This document shows, in pieces, positions 2,640 through 56,772 of a stretch of 64,000 bases of DNA. Below the pieces are notes generated by a model. It had not been told where the DNA came from. It made no database searches and was given only the letters and a program-made list of their open reading frames with translations. A program made the translations under genes and the position numbers. Source of the DNA: Nigrospora sphaerica (lineage: Eukaryota; Ascomycota; Sordariomycetes; Amphisphaeriales; Apiosporaceae); NCBI GenBank assembly GCA_018287875.1, contig JAGVVL010000018.1:372001-436000 (forward strand), written 5' to 3'. How positions within the stretch are numbered: position 1 is the stretch's first letter; every line of letters begins with the position of its first letter.

Positions 2640-3251
2640 CTAGGCCCGGTCGGTTTCTAGCTGTCGCTTCTCTTCTGCTGTCTTGCAGGTAATGGCATAG
2701 TCTCCGCTAGGAAGCTTCCATGTGGCTATTGCTGTTTCTTTGCCTGTTGCTGCGTTAACTTTCCGCACGATCTCTTCGTAGGTGCGGCCTTTAGTTCCTG
2801 CGGCCTTGATTATTACCTCCTGTTCGTGTCGAGTAAGTAGAGTCTTAGCTACCTGGGGGGCCCTAAATGCTAGGGTGGCGGTAAGGGAAGTAGCGGCTAC
2901 AGTGTATATTTTAGGAGCTTTAATTTCCTTATAAATAGCTTGCAGCGTGTTCTCGATAGTATTGATACGTCTTTTAACGCTAGGCTGGTTGTCCGATTCC
3001 TTAGCCGCTGTCTTTAAGACTGTAATGGCGGCTTGAACTACTACGGCTAAGGCCGCAATGTTGACTTCACTAGCTAGGAAGCGTTTAAAGTCGTCTATAG
3101 TGCTGCGTATATCCTCTGGACTGCGTCCAGGTGTTGTAATGCTGTTTGGCGATGGTGTTCTTGAGTCCGGAGGTGACGGCTCGGGGGGTGGGGCGGGCCT
3201 ATGGCGGCTCCCACCACCTGCGCTTTGCCTCGAGGGTGGTGAATCGACCAT
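2640..3251 (-). pseudogene. LINE family 1 ORF1 (gag-like), copy 1
   Basis: A 203-residue open stretch starting MVDSPPSRQSAGGG. It is proline-rich over residues 20-50, then helical, with a conserved block TYEEIVRKVNAATG and the end CKTAEEKRQLETD. The same protein is encoded at 51051-51662 in copy 3. In LINEs of this type ORF1 binds the element RNA. The frame continues past a stop at its end towards a cysteine-rich region (about 2140-2320) that fits the zinc-knuckle part of ORF1, but that part is broken by stops. Its start follows the leader directly, which supports the chosen ATG. It is inactive as part of a decayed element. Confidence 0.75.
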
Positions 3252-11329: not shown

Positions 11330-11448
11330 ACATACGACCATAGCTTCCAGAAAACTCGGGATCCCGTCCGCTCTCCCATAGATAAGCTGGAAAGCGCCGA
11401 ATTAGTACTAGGGTCGGTGACGACCTGGGAATCCTCGGTGTTGTATGT
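11330..11448 (+). rRNA. 5S ribosomal RNA gene, copy 1
   Basis: A 119-nt stretch beginning acatacgaccatag and ending gttgtatgt, the fungal 5S ends that pair as helix I. It contains the tcccgtccgctc loop region and a ggtcggtgacgacctggg block near the 3' end. A T-run directly follows (11448-11451, then more T), the usual RNA polymerase III stop. Helix II differs from the common ascomycete form, yet both sides have changed together (cttccag against ctggaaag), so it should still fold. The sequence at 24761-24879 is identical on the other strand. Dispersed 5S genes of several isotypes are known from Pezizomycotina such as Neurospora. Confidence 0.9.
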
Positions 11449-11614
11449 TTTTCCTTTTTGATGTTTTGCCACCCTCTCAAGTCACTGTCAAGTTTCCCCA
11501 TTCCATCATCCATCCCTTCTTTCACATCGATCATTCATCCCTTCACATTCCAAAGTCATCACCGCCAGAACACCAGAAAACCTTGACTGCTCTCCCCTCG
11601 TCTATCGCTCCATC

Positions 11615-13572: not shown

Positions 13573-16500
13573 ATGCGTGTGGCTGCCACCGCCTTATGGG
13601 CGGCACTCGTTGCCGCTCACGAAGTGAGAGCTGCCGCTGATGGATCTGAGGAGGCGTCCAGCGCCGTCATCGCAAAGCACTACATCGTCGAGTACGAACC
13701 CGTGAGTGATGCCCTTGTAAACCCTTGGGAGTACTGTGGCACTAAACCCGCGCGGGTAGGGGACTTCACGCATGGCATCCGTCGACGACGAAATCGTTGT
13801 GCTGAAGAGCTTCGAGTCAAGTGTGTTCTCGGGCGCCCACGTCCAGACAGACACCTATAACCTGGACACGCTCGCCCGCGTGCGGGGCGTCAAGAATGTC
13901 TGGCCCAACCAGCAAATTCAGCTTGCGCCCACGGAGCCTCTCGCGCGGCCCGGCGCTTTGGCCGCGTCGGGCGAGTACGACCCGCATAACGCCACGGGGG
14001 TCGGCAAGCTGCACGCGCTGGGCTTTTACGGCGAAGGCGTCGTCGTCGGCGTCGTGGACACGGGCACCGCGTACAAGCACCCGGCCCTCGGCGGCGGGTT
14101 CGGGCCCGGCTTCAAGGTCGAGGGCGGTTATGACTTCGTCGGGGACCGGTCCTGGCCCAACGGCGGCACCAAGGAACCTGACGGGGACCCTGACGACCAG
14201 CAGGGCCACGGAACGCACGTGGCCGGCATCATTGCGGGCGAGTCCGACTTTGGTTGGGTCGGTGTGGCCCCCAAGGCCACCCTTCGCTCCTACAAGGTCT
14301 TTAGCCAAGCGGGAAGCACGGATACGGCGACGCTCATCGAGTCATTTCTGATGGCCTACAGCGATGGCGTGGACATCATCACGGCGAGTATTGGTGGTGC
14401 CAGCGGCTGGGCGGAAAACGCCTGGGGCGTAGTGGCATCGCGGTTGGTGGATGAGGGCGTCGTCGTGACCATTTCGGCTGGCAACTCGGGCTCGGACGGC
14501 CCCTTCTTCGGGACGAATGGCGCGTACGGTACCAACGTTGTCGCCGTCGCCTCCATCGCGTCTGAGAGGTTGCCGGCCACGCCGTTCGCCATCACATTTA
14601 ACGAGGCCGCAGGTGGCAACTGGACTGATATCGAGGGTTACCTTCCGGCTTCTGGCTACTATCCCCCCAATATCGCCGACTGGGAGGTGCGTCCCATGAG
14701 CTTCAATACGTCGGCACCGGCCGATGGCTGCGAGCCCTACCCGGCCGACACGCCGCGGCTCGAGGGCGTCATTCCCATGGTCCGTCGCGGGACATGCTCC
14801 TTCGCCATCAAGCAGACGAACCTGGCCGCGCTGGGTGCCGAGTACATGCTGTTCTACAACAACGAGAGCCCCATGACGACGCCCTCGAGCGTCGACGACA
14901 CAACGCATATTGCGCTAATCACGGCCGAGCTGGGCGCCGCCGTCATCGCCACGGTCAAGTCCGGCGGAAACGTCACGGCCGACTTCTCGGTGAACCCGGA
15001 GCGTCCCGTGGGCGTCGGGTACGCGGCGGGCGGCCTGGCCAGCACCTTTACGAGCTGGGGCGGTACCTACGACCTGGCCATCAAGCCCGACGTCGCCGCG
15101 CCTGGCGGCAACATCTACAGCACCTATCTGGATGGCGGCTACGCCGTGCTCAGCGGCACGTCGATGGCCTGCCCCTACGTTGCCGGCGTCGCCGCCCTGT
15201 ACATTGGCGCGCACGGCGGCCGCGCCCGCCACGGTCCCAGTTTCGCGCGCGCTCTCGGTCGCCGCCTCATCGCCAGCGGCCGCTCCGTTCCCTGGTACAA
15301 CGGCGCCGGCGGGCCCAACTACGACCTGCCCGCGCCCGTCGCCCAGGTCGGCACGGGGCTCATCGACGCCTTCAAGGTCGTGCGCTACAAGACGGCCATC
15401 GACTTTGAGAAGATGGCGCTCAACGACACGCACCACTTCAACCGCTACCACAGCGTCCGGCTCACTCACGACGCTGACGCCGAAGCGCCTGTGACATTCC
15501 GCTTTACGCAGGAGCCGGCTGCTGGGTTCGAGGTGGCCGGCTGGTTCCCGCTCGGGACGACGCCAGGCGAGTACCGCGTTAAAAAGTTTGAGGAGCTCAC
15601 GCCGAAACCCCTTGTTGTGCCGGCGTTCCTCCCAGACACCGTTACGCTGCGGCCCGGCGAGACAAAAGACGTCCCGTGAGTTGTTACCCTCCCACTGGCT
15701 AGAACCCCCCCCTCCCTTTTTTTTGCGAGACTCTGACACCTCGTCAACACCGTAGGATAGCCTTTGACCCACCCGACAGGCTGGGCTGGAACTCGTCGGC
15801 GCTGCCGCTGTATTCTGGCAAGGTTTTGATTTCCGGCAGCAATGGCGAACAATTCTCTGTGCCATACATGGGTGAGTGGACACCTTCCCATCCCTGTGCC
15901 GTTGGAGTCAACGACGTAAAAACACAAGTCGGCGACATGTAGACTTTGGTCTTTGAGGAAAAGGCTGACGACGAACCGTCTTCCACCCAGGGATCGCCAG
16001 CAACCTCGAAAGAGAGGTGAAGCCCATCTTTCGTACTACCTACCCGTTTTCCAAGTCAACTGTGCAGTTTATCGACATCAAAGAGAAGCCATAGTAAGCA
16101 TTACCCACTAGAGTTTTGCACATCTAATCTGTAGGTTGCTGACATCCCAAACTCATAGCTACACCTTCAATCTCTCCACGGCTGCTCAGGACTTCCCTAA
16201 AATCTACACCAAGCTCGTCTGGGGCACGCGCGAAATCCGTTGGGACGTAAGTATTCAGCAACCTTCAGCATCACCGTCTCAGTTCTTTTGTTTTCCTAGT
16301 GGCTGCTTCGTTACGCTGCCCCGGAGTTTCCGGGCTGAGCCGACACAGAACGCTTGCTAACACGTACCTATTTTCTTGACCCAGATTTTCGAGGCGGACT
16401 GGCATGAGTACAGCTGGACCTACCCGCCCGTGCCCGGAGAGGCGGGCTACGTAGGCACCGTGGCGTCGTGGGTGGGCGCAGGACAGGTCGGTAGCTTCTT

Positions 16501-23160: not shown

Positions 23161-24760
23161 GCCAGGGACTACTGCTGCTAGATAGTTGGGACCGGGCAGT
23201 TCTGACAGGGCGTGAGGGTGGTGCAGGCGTCGGGAAGGCCGAGGGCTGACACCGATTGCTCACACGAAAGGTTGGAGCGACGCATTACGCAACGCATATT
23301 TAACCTTGTCACCACTCGTTTTCATAGCAGTCCCCCTTTATAGGGTCCATCCCACTAAAATGCGAATCATTTAATTTCTCCTCCAATATAGCTGCCTTCA
23401 TTCGCCAAGGTGTCCATCCGCCGTTCTTGCAAGTCTTTTGAGGGCATTGCAAACTCTAAACTGATTAAACTGTTGTGGCAGTAGCAGTGTAGGGGTACTT
23501 ACTGTTACTGTAAGTCAGACGACGCTGCGGGGATTCTTCCCGTGTGAGTAGCCCCCAAAACTGATAACCCAGTGGGGACACACACACGCCTGCGATGTAC
23601 TTTGGACGGAGGAGCAGCGCCCGGTTTTGATTAATGTACGGTGCACGGGGTTTGATCACGGCTGGCGCCGCGACAGAGCGGACCGCCAACCGTCCCGCCG
23701 TCACAGGATTGGTTGAGGGTGCCGTTCCATGGCATCGGTAAGGGATGCCCTCGGCCCAATGGCAGGATGCCGCCCAGTGTTGTTGGTTTGTGGTTATGCG
23801 GGAATGCTTTCTTGCGTACGCTGCCGTGATTGCTCGTTGATGCAGGTGCCATCACGCCGTCCGGATCCGGTTTCGGAGCGGTCGAGGCGGCCACGCTTCC
23901 CAGAGGCAGGATGTCGCCCGGTCATCTTACCAAGGTGGCGTTATCGCTATCGCAATGCAGACTGTTGGCGCAGGCTGTTTTCTTCGCAGGAGACGTGCCG
24001 AGTTCCCTGCGTGCTTCCCTTCCCATGTTCCTGGAAGCCACTCTCTGGAAACTCGGCTTTTCGCATGAGGTGCCTCGACCCTGGCTGGACATTCACCGGC
24101 AGTCCGCGATTCATGACTTTGCATATTTCTCTCACCACAGCGAACGGCTGTCTCACCCTCTCTTGCTCCTCGTCCCGTGGATGTATTCTGTCTGTGCCAC
24201 TTCTTTTGTTACTATGCCTCAGTAGCACACCGTTCCATAAATGACCCCTGGTTCACGTGCCATCCTTACTGACAGGCCCGCGGCACGTCACCCGACCATA
24301 CTCCGCAAGAATCTGGCCCACCTTCAGGTGCTATGCAGTCCGGCGCTTGCTGAGCGGTGACCACCGCGGTAAATCCGGAGACCGTGCCCCGTGTGTATAT
24401 TGTGAATCGAAGTCGTGGCGGCGGCCCGGGCGGGTCGTACCACAGGATCGTCCTGACAAGCATCTTGCGCACCTTCATGAGCGTCGGGTTTGACCGGACC
24501 GCCGTGGAGCGCCTCGGGGCTGCTTGGCGTTGTTTGGAAGCAGGGTACTTTTGCATGATGCCTGGAGGGATAACCTGGAATTTCGCTGCCCAGCCCTTAA
24601 AGTGCGTTTCTGGGTTGGTCTGCAGATAGCTTAACCGTCACCTATTTCTCCCCGGTTAGATACCCGTGCCATGCAGTCGTTATTGTCGCCGGCCGGTTTT
24701 AGAGCTTCGAGCCATGATTGCCCCTGTTGCAAGGGGTAAAAAAAGAACGACGAAACAAAA
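23161..24760. other. Intergenic with uncertain frames
   Basis: The frame 24357-24629 (plus) contains a cysteine-bearing end (EAGYFCMMPGGITWNF) but has no ATG and a stop just upstream, so it could only be a last exon. Longer frames at 23729-24244 overlap in several registers and none stands out. No repeat was found. Confidence 0.35.
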
Positions 24761-24879
24761 ACATACAACACCGAGGATTCCCAGGTCGTCACCGACCCTA
24801 GTACTAATTCGGCGCTTTCCAGCTTATCTATGGGAGAGCGGACGGGATCCCGAGTTTTCTGGAAGCTATGGTCGTATGT
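24761..24879 (-). rRNA. 5S ribosomal RNA gene, copy 2
   Basis: The reverse complement is identical over all 119 nt to the 5S gene at 11330-11448, including the changed but still paired helix II. On its own strand it is followed by five T and a further T-run, a polymerase III stop. Flanks are unrelated to those of copy 1, so this is an independent dispersed locus rather than a recent segmental copy. Confidence 0.9.
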
Positions 24880-32370: not shown

Positions 32371-33269
32371 TCAGTCCAGGGTCCAGATGTTCAGACCCGT
32401 TTTCACACCGTTCTGCGGGGGCAGCCCCGCGTGGAGCATGCGATCGTCCCCGATGCGATGCGAATCGATGTTTTTCCAAAACAGGGCATTCCCCGGAATG
32501 GCCCGCACCGTCAGTGCGTTGGCGTCGTCGCAGTCGACAAACTGGCACCACTTCCGGTCCTCCCGGGCCCAGTCCACGGCCAGGCGCGGGAAGCTCGTGC
32601 CGCAGCTGTCGCAGCTGGCCTCGAGGATGGCGAAGATGGTGGTGACGCGATCCATCCGGTGGGGCGGCACCACGTCGTAGAAGTGGTCCAAGTGCGGTCG
32701 GTACTGCTGGCCGGCGCGGTAACGCGTCAGCTGTAGGGATTCGACGCTGCGCGTGGGCGCAAACCCCTGCAGCGCCGCCGCGCGCGCCGTGATGCGCACC
32801 ACGATGGGGTCGTCCTCGGGCAGGAACGCCGTCGAGCTCGTGCGTACCGCGTCGGGAAGGCTCGTGCCGTTGTCAAACTTGACCGTGGACGGCTCAAAGA
32901 AGGGCGTGCTATAAAAGAAGGAGCACCGCGGTTAGCTGTTTGCTCGCCGTCTGTACTCACGCGAGCGAGGGGGGGAGGGGCAGGCACGCACCCGAGGCTG
33001 AGCAGGTAGTCTCTCTCGTGCTTTGGGATGAAGTCCACGATGTAGATCATCAGCGGGTCGTAGGAGAGGACGCGGATGCTGTACCCCGTCTCCGGGTAGT
33101 GCGCCGCCACGTAGGAATAGAGGTGCGGCCAGAGGGAGTTGACGGCGGTTGCGTATAGGGACGTAACAACGGGGTACGCCCGGGGCCATAGCATGGAGAA
33201 GAGCGGAACCGCCAGGGCCGCGATGGACAAGGAGTACCAAACCGAAGGCTTGCTCAGATAGGTCATCAT
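32371..33269 (-). CDS. Membrane-anchored prolyl-4-hydroxylase (2-oxoglutarate/Fe(II) dioxygenase)
   Basis: Two exons, 33269-32992 and 32908-32371, with an 83-nt intron (gtgcgt to ttatag), give 271 residues. Residues 10-30 form a hydrophobic signal anchor, placing the enzyme in the ER or Golgi lumen. The catalytic domain covers about 70-270. His165 and Asp167 (RPHLDHFYD), His252 (RMLHAGLP) and the oxoglutarate-binding Lys262 (GVKTGLNIW) are all present, so activity is likely. Such enzymes hydroxylate proline in secreted peptides using oxygen, oxoglutarate and Fe(II). The start codon faces that of the repeat peptide gene at 34195 across 925 bp, so the two may share a promoter region. That the proline-rich precursor is its substrate is inference; general collagen-like or wall substrates are alternatives. 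Confidence 0.9.
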
Positions 33270-34085
33270 GGTGAAGAGGTTTCAGCAAAGAAGTACTGTG
33301 AAGATAGGGCTTTGCGGGAGATTACGTGTTTCTGGCTTGCAGGAGAGAAGCCATGGGAAAGCATAGGAAACCTCGTGTGCTTTATTTGCCATTCCCTTTT
33401 CGTAGCAGTGGCTACCTCGCACGGAATTGACGTGGATTCCCACGCTCGCTTGGGTGATAAGCTCCTCTCGGAGTCGCATAACGATGTCCGCGAAACCCCT
33501 CCTGGTTGCCCGTCCAGACTCTGAGCCCAGGCGGTAACGACTGCCTACATCTTCCCAGTGGCCAGCCCAATGCGTACGCTGGATTTGACTCTCTGTAACC
33601 CCTCATTGCGTACTATCCCCGTTATCATGGTGGGGAGCGTACTTAAGGTTCGTCCGTCAAACGGACGTGGTCCACTATAGGCACCTGGGGATGCTATACT
33701 GCGCGCGATTCATGTGACGGCTTTTGCCCCATAAAATTAGATATTTATAAGTGACGGTAAAACACATCCCGCGGGATCCGTTCCGTCTACATGGAATTCT
33801 AGGTTCAACCCACGGGTTACGGGATGCTGTGCTCTGTCAGAGCGGTGTGATGACTTTTAGCGCTGCTGACAGAACAGAAGGTTCAACTTCGTCTGATCTA
33901 TCATGCATGTCTACAGTAGTGATACTATGCTTCTATGCTGTAGTGAGAATGTCCACCGGCGGTCTGTCGTACCCTCTAAGGACGGGGATTGCGGCATCCA
34001 ACTGAGAAATGCACGAAGCTGTGGAAAGTCCTTTCCCAACAGAGATACTTTCGCCGATATGTTGAAGTTTGAGGGTTCCTCCGTC
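33270..34085. promoter_or_regulatory. Divergent intergenic region between hydroxylase and repeat-peptide genes
   Basis: No coding frame looks real. This interval separates two start codons pointing away from each other and would hold the promoters of both genes. No transcription-factor site is claimed. Confidence 0.4.
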
Positions 34086-34093
34086 TATATAAG
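34086..34093 (+). promoter_or_regulatory. TATA box of the repeat-peptide gene
   Basis: TATATAAG lies 102 bases before the ATG at 34195, a normal distance in fungi, and is followed by a C/A-rich leader with tccc and cacatctt stretches. A strong TATA box suits a gene that is highly induced. Confidence 0.6.
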
Positions 34094-34194
34094 GCCGGAG
34101 TGCCCGCCGTTTCAGACACATAAATCATCCCATTTATCACCAGGACCTGCAGTAAAAACATCCTTATCCCACAATCACATCTTCCGCATTTACA

Positions 34195-34689
34195 ATGAAG
34201 TTCTCCTCAACCCTACCTCTTGCTTTCGCAGCACTTGCCCTCGCCGTCCCCAAAGTCTATGTCGATGGAGACAACAGCCTCGACACCCGCGACAACAACG
34301 TCCAGGCGCCGGGCCCCAGCCCCGGCGTCGGCCATGGACGTGTTCAGAACGCCGAAGCCCCTGGCCCCAGCCCCGGAGGCGGTGGTCATGGACGTCGTCA
34401 GGAGACAGCACCGGGCCCCAGCCCCGGTGGTGCTGGCCATGGACGTCGCCAAGCGACAGCCCCGGGTCCCAGCCCCGGCGTTGGTCATGGACGTGTTCAG
34501 AACGCTGAAGCCCCCGGGCCCAGCCCCGGAGGCGGCGGTCACGGACGTCGTCAAGCAACAGCCCCGGGTCCCAGCCCCGGCGTTGGTCATGGACGTGTTC
34601 AGAACGCTGAAGCCCCCGGGCCCAGCCCCGGCGGTGGCGGTCATGGACGAAGGAACGCCGGCGAGGAGGATGGTGGAGATGACTACTAG
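34195..34689 (+). CDS. Secreted tandem-repeat peptide precursor with plant CEP-like cores
   Basis: 164 residues, no intron. The signal peptide is MKFSSTLPLAFAALALA. From residue 38 to 156 there are seven perfect-length 17-residue repeats. Repeats 1, 4 and 6 read APGPSPGVGHGRVQNAE. Repeats 2, 3, 5 and 7 read APGPSPGGGGHGRR or APGPSPGGAGHGRR followed by QET, QAT or NAG. RR pairs at 67-68, 84-85, 118-119 and 152-153 are possible Kex2 sites, releasing peptides with one or two cores. The tail is acidic (EEDGGDDY). The core matches the land-plant CEP hormone consensus P-G-x-S-P-G-V/I-G-H. There are no cysteines, and apart from two tyrosines (residues 22 and 164, both outside the repeats) and one Phe pair in the signal region no aromatics, which argues against UstYa-type tyrosine cross-linking within the cores. 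A divergent prolyl-4-hydroxylase is next door. Function as a hormone mimic is inference. Confidence 0.88.
   Translation: MKFSSTLPLAFAALALAVPKVYVDGDNSLDTRDNNVQAPGPSPGVGHGRVQNAEAPGPSPGGGGHGRRQETAPGPSPGGAGHGRRQATAPGPSPGVGHGRVQNAEAPGPSPGGGGHGRRQATAPGPSPGVGHGRVQNAEAPGPSPGGGGHGRRNAGEEDGGDDY
34306..34662 (+). repeat. Seven 51-bp tandem coding repeats
   Basis: 357 bp, exactly seven units of 51 bp, each encoding 17 residues of the precursor. Units alternate between RV and RR types, so the pattern is partly a 102-bp higher-order repeat (units 1-2, 4-5 and 6-7, with 3 single). Units 4-5 and 6-7 are almost identical in DNA, showing recent duplication. Repeat number is likely to vary between strains. Confidence 0.9.
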
Positions 34690-35252
34690 ACCTTATTTGC
34701 TGTCAATACTCGGGGCGAGTGGTTCGGAGGCTCTTGGAAGCGCTCGATCGTTGTATGGAGTTCTCTTCGGAGTTTTAGCTCGGCCGATCGTGCGCGGGTT
34801 CCCTTCTTTTACGCCCTTAGTTAGTCGCTACTGATCGAATAATAAGTAACGATTCACGAAGCACAGTAAACTATGTATGTTTAAGTTGGTTACGACTATA
34901 CTGCTGTCTCAAAGATGAGTCTTTACTTATTATGATACTGTCGCACCACAGCGGCACTGGCAAGATAGAAACGGACTTTCAGGTTGTTCATTAAAGGAAA
35001 CCAACGCAAGGAAAGATGCCAGACATGGCAGACTATATACTGAAGCTTGCCAAGACTCCTGTGGAGCTTCTCACGTGATCCCACTGATAAGTTGTCGACC
35101 TTGGGAATGGCCTCACGGCGCGACAGATATACTTAGTCGGCCTTCCTTCTTATTTATTCTTTTCTGGCACCTACTGTTAGTGCCAGCCCGCTATTTACTG
35201 CCAAATCCTTAACAACCCTCCAACGGCGCCTCAACGCCAACCCAGAGGCCAG
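34690..35252. other. 3' flank of the peptide gene
   Basis: No gene seen. From about 35100 the sequence may already belong to the 5' leader of the LINE that follows; its exact start could not be fixed. Confidence 0.4.
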
Positions 35253-44290: not shown

Positions 44291-47200
44291 ATGACAGCGC
44301 TAAGGATCCTACATTGGAACACGCAGAAAAGCAAGAAAGCACAGATCCCGGCAGTCGATGCCATCTCCGAAGAGTACGACATCCTAGCTATCCAAGAGCC
44401 CTAGCGAAACCTACATATGCCGACTACCTATTGCCCAAGATCCTCTCCGTACCACCTCCTATACGCTACCAAGGGAGGTAGAGCATGCATCTATATTAAC
44501 AAGAAGTTCCCCTTAGCACAGTGGACCTACAAGGCGCAGCCAGACAGGTGCTATGTCACGATCCATCTACTAGACGGTCCTATAACCGTCATCTGCGTAT
44601 ACGCACCTCCTCCTGGGTCTATTAGCAGATCAGACCTACCAGTTATCGAAGCCCTCCTTACCAGCCCCCAGCTAGGACGAACAGTCCTCATAGGCGACTT
44701 TAACGTCCACCACCCCGTCTAGGGAGGACATAACGTCCGACCCCATAGGGCAGCCGATAAGCTGCTCCAGCTAGCAGAGCAATGGAGACTCCAGCTAATC
44801 ACCCCCCCGGAGTGCCGACATGGACTCGAAGAGGGTGCGCGGACTCTACAATTGACCTAGCCTGGGCCACGGAGGACCTCCGAGTCGCCTACAACGGATA
44901 CGCCCTGTACGCTGGCTCTGATCACCTCCCACAGGTGATACGCGTAGCTGGAGATCGAAACGACCCCCAGAATAAGCCACGGCGCAGCTGGAAAACAGCT
45001 GACTATAACTAAGCGAAGGCTAAAGCAGCATACCTATTATAACCAGAGTCACTAAAGACACTAGAGGACATCGACAGATACACCGAAACATTAACTAAGG
45101 AGCTGACTAGGATAGCCGACCTAGCTGCCCCCCTTCGCCATCCTAAGGGGAGAGGCAAGGCCTAGTGGAACAACGAAATAAGGGAGGCTATAAATAAAGA
45201 GAGGAAAACCCAGCGGACATGGCTCTCCGATAGGACAGACGAAGCCTGGCGAGCGCTCCGGCAAGCATCCCTCATAAAAAAGAAGGCGATCCGCATAGCA
45301 AAGACAGCGACATAGAGAACCATGCTCCACGAGGCTTCTAGCCAGCCAGCCGGAGTATGGAAAATCGCAAGATAGGCTAGAACCGAAGGAGCCGCGCCAC
45401 CGCTACCACCAGCCGTCCCTACACTACACACTCCACGAGGCGAAGCAACGACCCACAAAGAGAAAATAGAGGCCTTTCGGGAAAGATTTTATCCCCTTCC
45501 TAAGGCCGCGCACACCGGGTTCCGAATAACGCACCGGCTCGCACCGCCTCTCGATATAGACCGGAAGGTGACGGCAGACTAAGTGCAAGAAGTCCTCACT
45601 AAGGCAGGCCAGTGGAAGGCACCTGGACCAGACCAGCTTCTTAATGGATTCTTTAAACGACTAGGAGAACCCCTCTTCTGTGCCTTAGCCTCTCTAGCAG
45701 AGGCATACTGGCGTATAGGATATTACCTAACAGCGTTCCGTAAAGCAGTAACAGTCATCCTTTGGAAACCTGGAAAACAGCCAAACGAGTACCACCAAGC
45801 TAGCGGCTGGAGGCCTATTGCGTTACTTAACACCATAGGGAAGACGATCGAAAGCTTACTAGCGCAACGGCTAGCTAGCTTTGCCGAAGAGAACGGACTC
45901 CTCCCAAACGAACAGATAGGCAACCGGAAAGGCCGCTCCACGGAAACCGCGCTACGGCTGCTCACAGACCTAGTCCGCACAGCCTGGAAGCATGGAGGCG
46001 CTGCGACCCTCCTATCGCTAGATATCTCGGGTGCATTCGACTCCGTTGACCATAACAGACTCCTTGGCAACCTACGAGTGCTCCGAGTACCTATATAGAC
46101 TATTAACTGGATACGCAGCTTCCTTTTTAACCGATCCACCACACTGCTCTTCGACGGCCAGGAATCAGACGAGATCCCGATCCCGGCAGGCGTCCCGCAG
46201 GGCTCACCCTTATCGCCTATCCTCTTCTGCCTCTACATAGCCGGTCTTTATAAGGCCCTCCGTGCTATTCCCGGGATAGCCACTATCGCTTTCGCAGACG
46301 ACACGAACCTCGTAGGCTTCGGCTTAGACCCCGAGCAGACCTGCAAGCAGCTGGAAGCCGCTTATAGGACCTGTAAAGAATGGGCAGTTAGCCACGGCAT
46401 GACCTTCGCAGTCCAGAAATATCACCTAGTCCACTTCTCTCGAAGACGGAAAGGTCCGGACACAAAGATAGCCTTAAAAGGCCACGAAATCGAACCAGAA
46501 GACTCCTGCCGCATCCTCGGGGTCCACGTGGATAGACGCCTCCGCTGGGACACCCATATCCAATCGATCTCCAAGAAGATGACCACGCAAGTCTACGCCC
46601 TAGACCGCATAACAGCTTCGACATGGGGCGCGTCCTTCCAGCGGGCCCGCCAAGTCTACACCGCGGTCGTCAGGACCGCTATAAGCTACGGAGCCTTAGA
46701 ATGGCACCGGCATATATCGAAGAATAGGGCTAAAATGCTTAACAATATCCAGACTGAGTGCCTCCGCAAGGTCACAGGGGCCTTCAAAGCGATAGCAACC
46801 GAGATACTAGAAACAGAAGCCTATATGCCACCTCTAGACATATGGCTTAATAAGAGAGTGGCGGCGTCGGAAGAGAGGCTCCAACAGCCACGTATCGCAT
46901 CACTTATCCAAGCCAGATGTGATAACGCAGCTAGATGGATCCTAACGAGACCGACCCGCCGGCGCAGACCGAAAGGCCCCGACGTCCCTGACCGTAAGGG
47001 ATGGCTAAATAAGTGGCTAGCTAGAGACTCGGCATGCAAGGCCGAAAAGAGAGACTGGCAACAGAGATAGCAGCAGATACAGCAAAACCGAACAGCGCGA
47101 GCCCTGGCAGCAACTAAGATACCGCCAGACAAGCATATCCTCAAGCTCCATAAGGGACTCCATAAGGCCGAGAGCTCCATCCTTGTCTAAGCGAGGACTG

Positions 47201-50919: not shown

Positions 50920-51050
50920 AGGCAGGCCCAGGCTGACAAAAAAAAAAAACCTTTCGAAACTGATCCCACACGGCGATAACTCTACAACCACGACTGTATA
51001 AGCCACCGGATAGCCCGGAAACTGTTCCTAGGGCTACATTTAGCCTAGAA

Positions 51051-51662
51051 ATGGTTGATTCATCACCCTCGGGGCAAAGCGCGGGTGGTGGGAGCCGCCA
51101 ACGGCCCGCCCCACCGCCCGAGCCGACGCCTCCGGACTCGCGAACGCCATCGCCAAGCAGCAATGCGACACCGGGACGCAGTCCAGAAGCCATTCGCAGC
51201 ACCGTCAACAGCCTCAGACGCTTCCTAGCTGGCGATTCCGACGTTGCGACCTTGGTCGCAGCCGTACAGGCCGCCATCCCAGTCCTAGAGGAGGCAGCCA
51301 AGGAACCCGACAGCCAGTCTAACATCGAAGAGCGTATCAGCGCTATCGAGAACACGCTACAAGCTATCCATAAGGATATTAAAGCTCCTAAGATATACGC
51401 TGCTGCCGCTACTACCCCTACCGCCGCTCCGGCGCCCAGGGCCCCCCAGGTAGCTAAGACACTGCCTCCTCGACACGAGCGGGAGGTCACGGTTAAGGCC
51501 GCGGGAACTGAAGGACGCACCTACGAAGAGATCGTGCGGAAAGTCAACGCAGCGGTAGGTAGAGAAGCAGCAGTAGCTACACGGAAGCTTCCTAGCGGAG
51601 ACTACGCTATCACCTGCAAGACAGCGGAGGAGAAATGCATACTGGAAACGGACCGGACCTAG
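51051..51662 (+). pseudogene. Family 1 LINE ORF1, copy 3
   Basis: 203 residues, MVDSSPSGQSAGGG to ILETDRT, collinear with 2640-3251 of copy 1. Proline-rich start, a helical middle (VAAVQAAIPVLEEAAKE, ERISAIENTLQAIHKDI) suited to trimer formation, then TYEEIVRKVNAAVG. Downstream, in broken frames to about 52240, there is a cysteine-poor remnant of the zinc-knuckle part. The frame closes with a TAG where copy 1 also has one. Confidence 0.75.
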
Positions 51663-54911: not shown

Positions 54912-56772
54912 AGTTCGAGGACCCCCATTCGGGCCCCCCCCACTTTCGGGCCCCCCAAAAATCAGCCAGCGAAAACCAGCCCTATCAATAGAACTTCAAA
55001 TATAGCCTTAATTAATGATAACTCTAATACACGAACCAGCCTCACTTAGGCTTTCGCTGTCACTCTCTTCATCTAGACCACTTTCGGCTTCTCCGACCGC
55101 CAATTGAGCCCGGTGGATGTCTTCGATATTCGCGAACTTCGAATTGGGGCTTAAATCCACCTTCTTCCTTTTCCTTGGTCTGATAGTGTCAATCCTAGCT
55201 TCGAGAGCTTGAATTTGCCTTTGAGCAGTAGCTGATTGGACGTTCTTCTCATCAAAGGCCTTTTGGATCTTCCGGAAGAGTAGTCGTTATGTGGTTGAGT
55301 GTTTAGCTAGCTGGTTCGAAAGCTGTACTTGGTCCTTAAAGTCCGACGTCTTCTTTGGAGTCGACCAAACCACTGTAGAAGTATGGGATGTCTTTTGAGG
55401 TGTTGAGAACTCTCTATTTAAGTAGGATCTCTTCGAATTTGTCGTATCGGGTGTTAATTGTTGTGCATTTTGAATTAAATTCCGACTAAGAAGCGGTTTA
55501 GCTATATTAACCGGCCAGAGACCGGCGGCTTTCCACCCATTCCGGATATTCTGACCGGTAAGGCCGGCTAAGCGAGCCTTCTTATAGCAGGCAAGAAAAT
55601 TCCGCTTGCCAACTATCGTCGAGTCTGTTAACTGAGTTAGAAATCCGAGCTCTTTCCGGTACGCCGATTTTAAAGAACTGAAAATGGCTAAATCGAGAGG
55701 TTGGAGGACGTGAGAGGTATACGGGGGCAAGAAAAGAAGATATATCCGATACGAGAAGCATTGGAACATAAAATCAGTCGTTGTATGGCTGCCATGGCCG
55801 TCCATCACGAGTAGGCGGTACTCGGAAGGGTCCTCGGGGGCGGTATTCGGGATAAAGACCTTCTCGAGCTACTCGAGCGCTGTTTAGTCTGTAATCCATC
55901 CGTTTTCGGTTGCAGTGAACTGCCAGCCTCCGAATTGGCTTAAATCGAGCGGGAACCATTGCTGCTAAACTGTCTTGCCCTTAAAAATGACTAATAGGGG
56001 CAGGGCATGGCCTTAGGCGGAGATGCATTCGATAAAGGACGTCCAGACACGAGAACCAGGCTGCTTCTTTCGGACTGAGCGCTTTTCCGAACCTCCAAGT
56101 ACTAGACCGTTAGATCCAGCACCTTCTAGGAGCCCTGCTTCATCCATATTGTAGCGGTTAGCCGGCTTCACCCTCTGGATCTCCGGTAACTGAAGATACC
56201 GGAACCATAGTCGAGTTACCTCGACTGAGGCGCCATTAACACGCTGTGAGTCGATGGACCGGCTCTTATGGACCTGTATAGCTGGGTTCCTGCGTAGGAA
56301 GGCCTGCAGCCACCTCTTTCCGAGTGGCTCGCTGTCACCCTGAGCCCGGAGGATACGTTCGGCGAACTCCTTCACTTGGGCGTGCGAAGGTGGAAGCCCT
56401 AGGGCAGCTTGGGTAAGGATCCAGGTCGTAAGCAACTCTTCCTAGACTGGTCTGAGCCTCTGTTGGTATGCGAACGCATCTGACCTGCTTTGTTGGCCTC
56501 GAAGTCTGTTTTGTAGTGTTGATTTCGGTATGCCGTATTCTCGCGTAGTCTGCTTAATTCCGTGCCCACTCGTAACGGAGCTAAGGGCCCTTTGCATATC
56601 TTCTTTGGAATACTGTTTCATATTAGCTATAACTGTTATAATATGAGTTTATAGAAAGATTGGACGCCAATTGAGTTCAGAAATAGAAAGAACGTCCGAA
56701 AGGCCGAAAATTCGGTGGCTGGTTTTTAGGGGGCCCGAAAGTGGGGGGGGCCCGAATGGGGGTCCTCGAACT
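54912..56772 (-). mobile_element. Fot1/Pogo-type DNA transposon, family C, nested in the LTR
   Basis: Inverted ends agttcgaggacccccattcg (54912) and the complement ending at 56772, continuing through gggcccccc and cactttcgg blocks for about 48 bp. TA at 54910-54911 and 56773-56774, confirmed by the empty site in the other LTR. Length 1861 bp. It is the youngest layer of a three-level nest. Confidence 0.96.
55008..56621 (-). pseudogene. Fot1/Pogo transposase, family C, with about six stops
   Basis: About 538 codons in one frame without a frameshift: MKQYSKEDMQRALSSVTSGH, helix-turn-helix GIKQTTREYGIPKSTLQNRL, CENP-B-type helices (56013-56435) with RVNGASVEVTRLWF, then the DDE domain with RYNMDEAGLLEG, LLVMDGHGSHTT and LQPLDLAIFSSLK. 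The three acids are kept. The tail has a coiled coil and RPRKRKKVDLSPNSKFANIED. Stops such as those after LRPV, ISA and KTV stand at expected Gln or Trp codons. Only point changes separate it from an open frame, so this copy decayed recently. Confidence 0.92.

Follow-up and report, generated by a model that had tools for sequence, protein, structure and literature searches.

A tandem-repeat precursor with CEP- and PIP-like cores adjoins a predicted prolyl 4-hydroxylase gene in the fungus Nigrospora sphaerica

We analysed a 64,000-nucleotide stretch of N. sphaerica DNA (the window; positions 372,001 to 436,000 of contig JAGVVL010000018.1, assembly GCA_018287875.1), in which the gene of a small tandem-repeat precursor and a divergently transcribed prolyl 4-hydroxylase (P4H) gene lie side by side (Table 1). 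The precursor frame was the sole match to itself across the 51.6-Mb, 33-contig genome (11 candidates scored). Its N terminus is hydrophobic and, going by hydropathy only, resembles a signal peptide (best nine-residue hydropathy 2.62), and the precursor is apparently secreted.

Table 1. Features of the precursor–hydroxylase locus (positions are those of the window)
Feature	Position	Strand	Remarks
Divergent prolyl 4-hydroxylase gene	32371..33269	-	271 aa; exon 1 33269-32992, exon 2 32908-32371
Intergenic region, start codon to start codon	33270..34194		925 bases, shared by precursor and P4H
TATA-like sequence TATATAAGG	34086..34094	+	~100 bases 5' of the start codon; read by eye
Repeat precursor ORF	34195..34689	+	164 aa, intronless
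Signal-peptide-like N terminus	34195..34245	+	~17 aa; from sequence and hydropathy; cleavage point guessed
Repeat 1, APGPSPGVGHGRVQNAE	34306..34356	+	VGH type, single Arg
Repeat 2, APGPSPGGGGHGRRQET	34357..34407	+	GGGGH type, dibasic
Repeat 3, APGPSPGGAGHGRRQAT	34408..34458	+	GGAGH type, dibasic
Repeat 4, APGPSPGVGHGRVQNAE	34459..34509	+	preceded by RRQAT; CEP profile 25.5 bits
Repeat 5, APGPSPGGGGHGRRQAT	34510..34560	+	
Repeat 6, APGPSPGVGHGRVQNAE	34561..34611	+	preceded by RRQAT; CEP profile 25.5 bits
Repeat 7, APGPSPGGGGHGRRNAG	34612..34662	+	acidic tail EEDGGDDY next

As the first-pass annotation of this DNA had claimed, the precursor is built of seven 17-residue repeats: the APGPSPG unit starts at residues 38, 55, 72, 89, 106, 123 and 140, a spacing of exactly 17, and Tandem Repeats Finder gave periods of 51, 102 and 153 bases, of which 102 corresponds to one VGH plus GGGGH pair. 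The cores, too, were those described, namely PGPSPGVGH in three of the seven and PGPSPGGGGH (3/7) or PGPSPGGAGH (1/7) in the other four; units 1, 4 and 6 are identical, and in units 2, 3, 5 and 7 GGGGH or GGAGH leads into GRR. The extra Gly reported before the basic site is found after every core (Gly-Arg in 7/7), and the single Arg reported for three repeats belongs to precisely the three VGH cores (GRV). That annotation had missed that the basic site splits perfectly by core type, VGH being followed by GRV, which is not dibasic (3/3), and GG(G/A)GH by GRR (4/4), leaving the three VGH repeats without an Arg-Arg site of their own. With four Arg-Arg sites among seven repeats, the precursor has the layout by which fungal Kex2-processed repeat proteins (KEPs) are recognized, at least three repeats with dibasic separation.

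The gene on the other side of the intergenic region is interrupted by one intron of 83 bases (GT...AG, splice sites chosen by eye), and its protein has a single N-terminal hydrophobic, membrane-type segment (hydropathy 1.64 over 19 residues). Exon 2 matched PF13640 above the cut-off, and the best PDB sequence match was a Chlamydomonas (algal) P4H (E 2.4e-16). The exon-2 frame was modelled from 35 sequences with a mean pLDDT of 88.8 and a pTM of 0.83, its opening residues being translated intron and of low confidence; Foldseek matched the model best to 3gze, the algal enzyme crystallised together with (Ser-Pro)5 (E 3.4e-11, TM 0.75). An alignment of 35 sequences (the window enzyme and 34 of 67 database hits) shows no variation at the metal ligands H165, D167 and H252 or at the 2-oxoglutarate-binding K262 (numbering of the spliced protein). 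At two positions where Tyr has drawn attention in the algal enzyme (PMC9676403), the window enzyme, aligned to it, has Tyr as well. The fold and catalytic residues are common to this enzyme and Chlamydomonas P4H-1 (PDB 3gze, 2jig), and on the modelled double-stranded β-helix and the HxD...H plus Lys signature we assign it as a prolyl 4-hydroxylase with predicted catalysis, and as the candidate source of proline modification at this locus. Among the 67 database hits, many bear the name prolyl 4-hydroxylase and come from Colletotrichum and Pleosporales; one Colletotrichum destructivum protein is 56% identical over 83%, and a P4H encoded on a contig of ~6.2 kb is 78% identical. A tree built on 35 rows places the enzyme of the window in a clade with two database sequences (100/100), to which its own paralogues L010 and L011 do not belong; a further sequence, L012, was left out for having too few filled columns.

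The pairing of the two genes is one case in this genome, noticed after the fact. Because the genome has only seven PF13640 loci, the window P4H included, the chance of lying within ~2 kb of one is about 0.07% (7 x 5 kb / 51.6 Mb), itself after-the-fact arithmetic. In seven 10-kb stretches, six of them at the remaining PF13640 loci and the seventh at a weak match that has three stops, we judged no frame to be KEP-like by a test that took ATG-started frames of at least 50 residues with a pentamer occurring at least three times, and which intron-containing genes would escape. Three of the seven had low-complexity frames only, for example poly-Leu, poly-Asp, Arg-Asp, and Ala-Val-Gly antisense to an Asn-Gly-Thr run.

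A Pfam scan of 20 window frames, which included the precursor and both P4H frames, gave a match at E <= 0.01 for nine; P4H aside, the matches of these 20 suggested no further peptide-modifying enzyme nearby. Genome-wide, neither the peptidylglycine amidating enzyme (PF03712), which the Gly before the basic site would call for in an amidated peptide, nor RALF gave a match, and the control of each search was silent as well. The window also contains a subtilase frame of 639 aa (13760-15676, + strand; PF00082 and PA domains) ~19 kb from the precursor. It further has two dispersed 5S rRNA genes, one at 11330-11449 (+) and the other on the opposite strand at 24760-24879 (-), each scoring 100.7 bits. 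Mobile elements lie downstream of the precursor, as reverse transcriptase (PF00078) and DDE_1 transposase frames at 45583-47067 (+) and 55290-55868 (-). Two frames, 2643-3251 (-) and 50964-51659 (+), encode nearly identical Ser/Pro-rich protein text and are apparently copies of one dispersed element.

We measured the likeness of the repeats to plant C-terminally encoded peptides (CEPs), which the first-pass annotation had taken as the sign of a fungal CEP mimic, with a profile built from 16 published CEP domains of plants, nematodes and one bacterium (PMC8618561, PMC10608282, PMC11649690). The 15-mer RRQATAPGPSPGVGH, present twice with the VGH of repeat 4 or of repeat 6 as its end, scored 25.5 bits and that of repeat 1 19.9 bits, against a leave-one-out range of 14.2-44.5 bits for the 16 CEPs themselves, two of which fall under 25.5; AtCEP4 scored 26.8. 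By comparison, 322,196 background 15-mers gave at most 14.7 bits; they came from all six frames of the window, 34001-35000 excepted, and from fetched loci, some of them picked for related motifs. None of 5,000 shuffled 34-residue units reached 25.5 bits (maximum 18.0). In addition, repeats 4 and 6 agree with nematode MhCEP11 at 10 of the 11 residues from position 5 to position 15. The CEP likeness of the VGH repeats is quantitatively real, and in this the earlier reading stands; its comparison was too narrow. The G-type cores reached 9.1 bits at best on the same profile because they are one residue longer.

The C-terminal half of the CEP motif, PGxSPG(V/I)GH, occurs in three of the seven repeats. 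Its N-terminal (F)(R)PT with Pro4 does not: repeats 4 and 6 have RRQAT there and repeat 1 has DNNVQ, in line with the lack of F-R-P-T pointed out earlier, and in repeats 4 and 6 Thr5 is the one residue shared. All VGH cores hold Pro7, Pro9 and Pro11 together. The comparison with both plant families that the annotation had called for came out in two ways, PSPGVGH being the ending of group II CEPs, whereas the SGPS of the PIP motif is absent, Pro taking the place of its first Ser. The V-type cores fit the CEP spacing and the G-type cores that of PIPs, the latter partly by reference to the AtPIP1 sequence. Group II CEPs, CEP4 and PIPs fit better as plant relatives, ahead of the canonical group I CEPs; the first-pass annotation had missed both this and the adjoining P4H.

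Group II CEPs (Arabidopsis CEP13-15; receptor CEPR2) are described as ending in VPSPG(V/I)GH, with N termini markedly divergent from the canonical ones (PMC12494267). They share with the VGH repeats the C-terminal PSPG(V/I)GH with Pro9 and Pro11, and an N terminus unlike that of group I, but the fungal cores run on into Gly-Arg and come in seven tandem copies in a Kex2-type precursor. The activity of group II CEPs depends on their proline hydroxylation pattern, hydroxylation of Pro9 promoting that of CEP14 (PMC12494267), and CEP4, which carries Pro9, also requires RLK7 (PMC12494267, PMC11649690). PIPs combine SGPS with GxGH, some precursors having two such motifs (PMC4526919), and proline hydroxylation raises the activity of PIP1 (PMC4154866). 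Like members of this PIP/PIPL family (receptor RLK7), the fungal G-type cores have GPS and then GxGH; unlike them, the four repeats concerned (4/7, PGPS...GxGH) start the motif with Pro, continue into Gly-Arg-Arg and do not place it at the precursor's end. The CEP mimics of nematodes (Meloidogyne, Rotylenchulus) are likewise non-plant, with likeness confined to the CEP domain, and some Rotylenchulus precursors also hold several domains, but in most nematode domains the N-terminal Pro-Thr part is retained, and their last residue is His, Asn or Gln (PMC8618561).

We propose that the two genes form a module in which a Kex2-processed repeat precursor and its own prolyl hydroxylase yield secreted hydroxyproline peptides, a reading that we regard as moderately probable. 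The precursor would enter the ER and the secretory pathway, and the P4H, anchored by its N-terminal segment, would hydroxylate prolines in A-P-G, G-P-S and S-P-G. At each of the four Arg-Arg sites Kex2 would cleave behind the pair, and the arginines would then be removed by Kex1-type trimming. Predicted to result are the 15-mer QETAPGPSPGGAGHG and two 32-mers, in each of which a VGH core is linked to a GGGGH core, besides the acidic tail and a larger fragment from the N terminus; to set the VGH cores free, cleavage in the region of Gly-Arg-Val would be needed. The resulting hydroxyproline peptides would act as secreted signals. A Kex2-type P domain is present in the genome (one match, partial, 57 of 86 positions). 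In favour of the module we further count the repeat anatomy with its split of basic sites, the core codons that vary silently, the features of the P4H and the small number of such loci, the CEP profile score, and the likeness to group II CEPs and PIPs together with the effect that proline hydroxylation has on these.

Several observations count against this module. No homologue of the whole precursor was found at E <= 0.001 among 5.8 billion proteins (the 7,992 candidates with most shared words were scored), nor one of residues 1-44 at E <= 10 (seven candidates), in a collection that did not return the precursor itself and seems to be without this fungus, other fungi being present among the P4H hits. 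The pairing was seen at none of the seven other P4H-like stretches (0/7). That the two genes lie together may be coincidental; members of the wider P4H family are present in many Colletotrichum and Pleosporales. Finally, a 32-mer is a long product if Gly-Arg stays uncut.

One role for such a module, which we hold as a tentative possibility, is that of an endogenous fungal signal or cell-wall peptide with an alpha-factor-like layout, in which QATA, QETA and NAEA would serve as Ste13-type X-Ala spacers. This role is not exclusive of the two-gene module. KEPs, pheromones included, occur in nearly all fungi surveyed, X-Ala spacers being possible in them (PMC6339444), and the precursor layout is the same. 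However, the two cysteines and the PYGxPxG of Ascomycota pheromones are both absent from the core, and these pheromones are described as unmodified (PMC6339444), whereas a P4H adjoins this gene.

Outside the fungus, the leading guess is that the peptides would address plant CEP/PIP receptors after C-terminal trimming by a fungal or plant protease. We consider it plausible, though less likely than not, that released hydroxylated peptides bind plant CEPR1, CEPR2 or RLK7 and alter host immunity, nitrogen signalling or root growth, a role that is also compatible with the two-gene module and does not exclude other readings of it. The 25.5-bit score falls inside the CEP range, PSPGVGH is identical to the group II ending, the G-type cores share GPS...GxGH with PIPs, and the modification that boosts CEP14 and PIP1 is the one the neighbouring enzyme is predicted to make. 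There are also precedents: nematode CEP mimics arose without similarity to plant CEPs beyond the domain (PMC8618561, PMC10773996), and a 2026 review describes fungal mimics of RALF, SCOOP, CLE and CAPE, its CEP mimic coming from a nematode (PMC13157962). In contrast, every His is followed by an extra Gly and mature CEPs end at His, the VGH cores never stand at a dibasic Kex2 site, FRPT and Pro4 are missing, GPSPGVGHGR is also found singly in a phage-contig frame, and many plant peptide families are on offer for chance matching. For mimicry the C-terminal Gly would have to go, and from the VGH cores also GRV and the residues beyond. A carboxypeptidase contributes to the C-terminal trimming of CLE peptides (reviewed in PMC13157962), and by analogy trimming of the fungal cores to His is possible. 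The fullest form of this idea, an independently evolved two-gene unit making CEP-type PSPGVGH and PIP-type GPSPGGxGH mimics with its own algal/plant-type P4H for CEPR1, CEPR2 and RLK7 targets, strikes us as unlikely.

It is improbable that the gene is a Gly/Pro-rich tandem repeat drifting in low complexity, with no selected function and a CEP likeness owed to chance. Gly and Pro do make up 48% of the repeats, but the CEP score was reached by none of the 5,000 shuffled units. Moreover, pairwise comparison of the seven cores at codon level counts 55 synonymous differences and no non-synonymous one; with at least eight silent events in the core, and ~32% of single-base changes silent, P is ~1e-4, an approximate value that assumes independent and equally likely changes in repeats that share history. 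Across whole G-type units (six unit pairs) there are 42 silent and 12 amino-acid-changing differences. The core looks selected, within that approximation, because its codons differ silently only.

The motif also occurs elsewhere. A scan of the genome for the codon pattern P-S/x-P-G-V/I-G-H, blind to motifs split by an intron, gave seven matches, three within the precursor gene, and none for the reversed-pattern control; the other four decode to PRPGVGH, PTPGVGH, P*PGIGH and PTPGIGH, none with Ser. The PGxSPGxGH pattern likewise gave seven matches, three in the precursor (reversed control, two), and its four matches elsewhere count in favour of drift: one lies opposite a long frame, which we take to be a P-type ATPase, one inside a frame that is presumably a chitin synthase, one is without Ser and one is in a short frame. 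Beyond this genome, the GPSPGVGHG(R) codon pattern matched once each in two viral and five prokaryote contig stretches, with the exact ten-mer in three of the seven. One of these stretches, a phage contig of the viral collection (L029:10035-10063), has GPSPGVGHGR once in a frame; it is a chance match and a warning against claims made on a motif only.

A dikaritin-type RiPP precursor (ustiloxin-like cyclic peptide) is exceedingly improbable and was rejected: the Kex2 repeat layout and the many UstYa matches in the genome (52 exon-wise) would suit it, but the nearest UstYa (PF11807) match on the contig is more than 2.6 Mb off and the repeats have no Tyr.

In Xanthomonas, the sulfotransferase RaxST adjoins RaxX. 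RaxX, a tyrosine-sulfated PSY mimic (PMC13157962), resembles the peptides proposed here in being hormone-like, of microbial origin and dependent on a modification of host type; that modification is Tyr sulfation in RaxX and putatively Pro hydroxylation here, where the receptor is putative as well. Compared with fungal KEPs, which have a signal peptide, tandem repeats and dibasic sites (PMC6339444), the precursor has a signal-peptide-like N terminus and the same repeat organization, but differs in having two core types, one alone with Arg-Arg, in being proline-rich and in its adjoining P4H. By word search, the main texts of two KEP surveys (PMC6339444 and PMC7329392) make no mention of a CEP or of a mimic. 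A second review gives nematodes as the only known non-plant source of CEPs (PMC12825991), and an older one lists a Ralstonia CEP sequence (PMC8618561). A 2026 survey reports CEP-like motifs in four of its eukaryote lineages and no PIP/PIPL beyond vascular plants, in a text without any word starting with "fung" (PMC13091385). Literature searches had no paper on fungal CEPs among the matches listed (in one of them, the best 25 of 6,740), which leaves their absence unproven. None of the eight papers listed for that combination brought together a Kex2-type fungal peptide and a prolyl hydroxylase, the sole mention of prolyl hydroxylase there being in a plant peptide review.

The activity of CEP14 and PIP1 rests on proline hydroxylation, and at this locus a candidate enzyme for that modification is encoded beside fungal CEP/PIP-like repeats. 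If hydroxylation holds, a fungal peptide of the Kex2 type would here come with a prolyl hydroxylase dedicated to it; if receptor dependence holds, it would, going by the accounts in PMC8618561, PMC13157962 and PMC12825991, be the first fungal CEP/PIP mimic. We offer a search rule, a P4H gene next to a proline-rich repeat precursor. The pair of precursor and P4H suggests, short of proof, a fungal route to hormone-like peptides.
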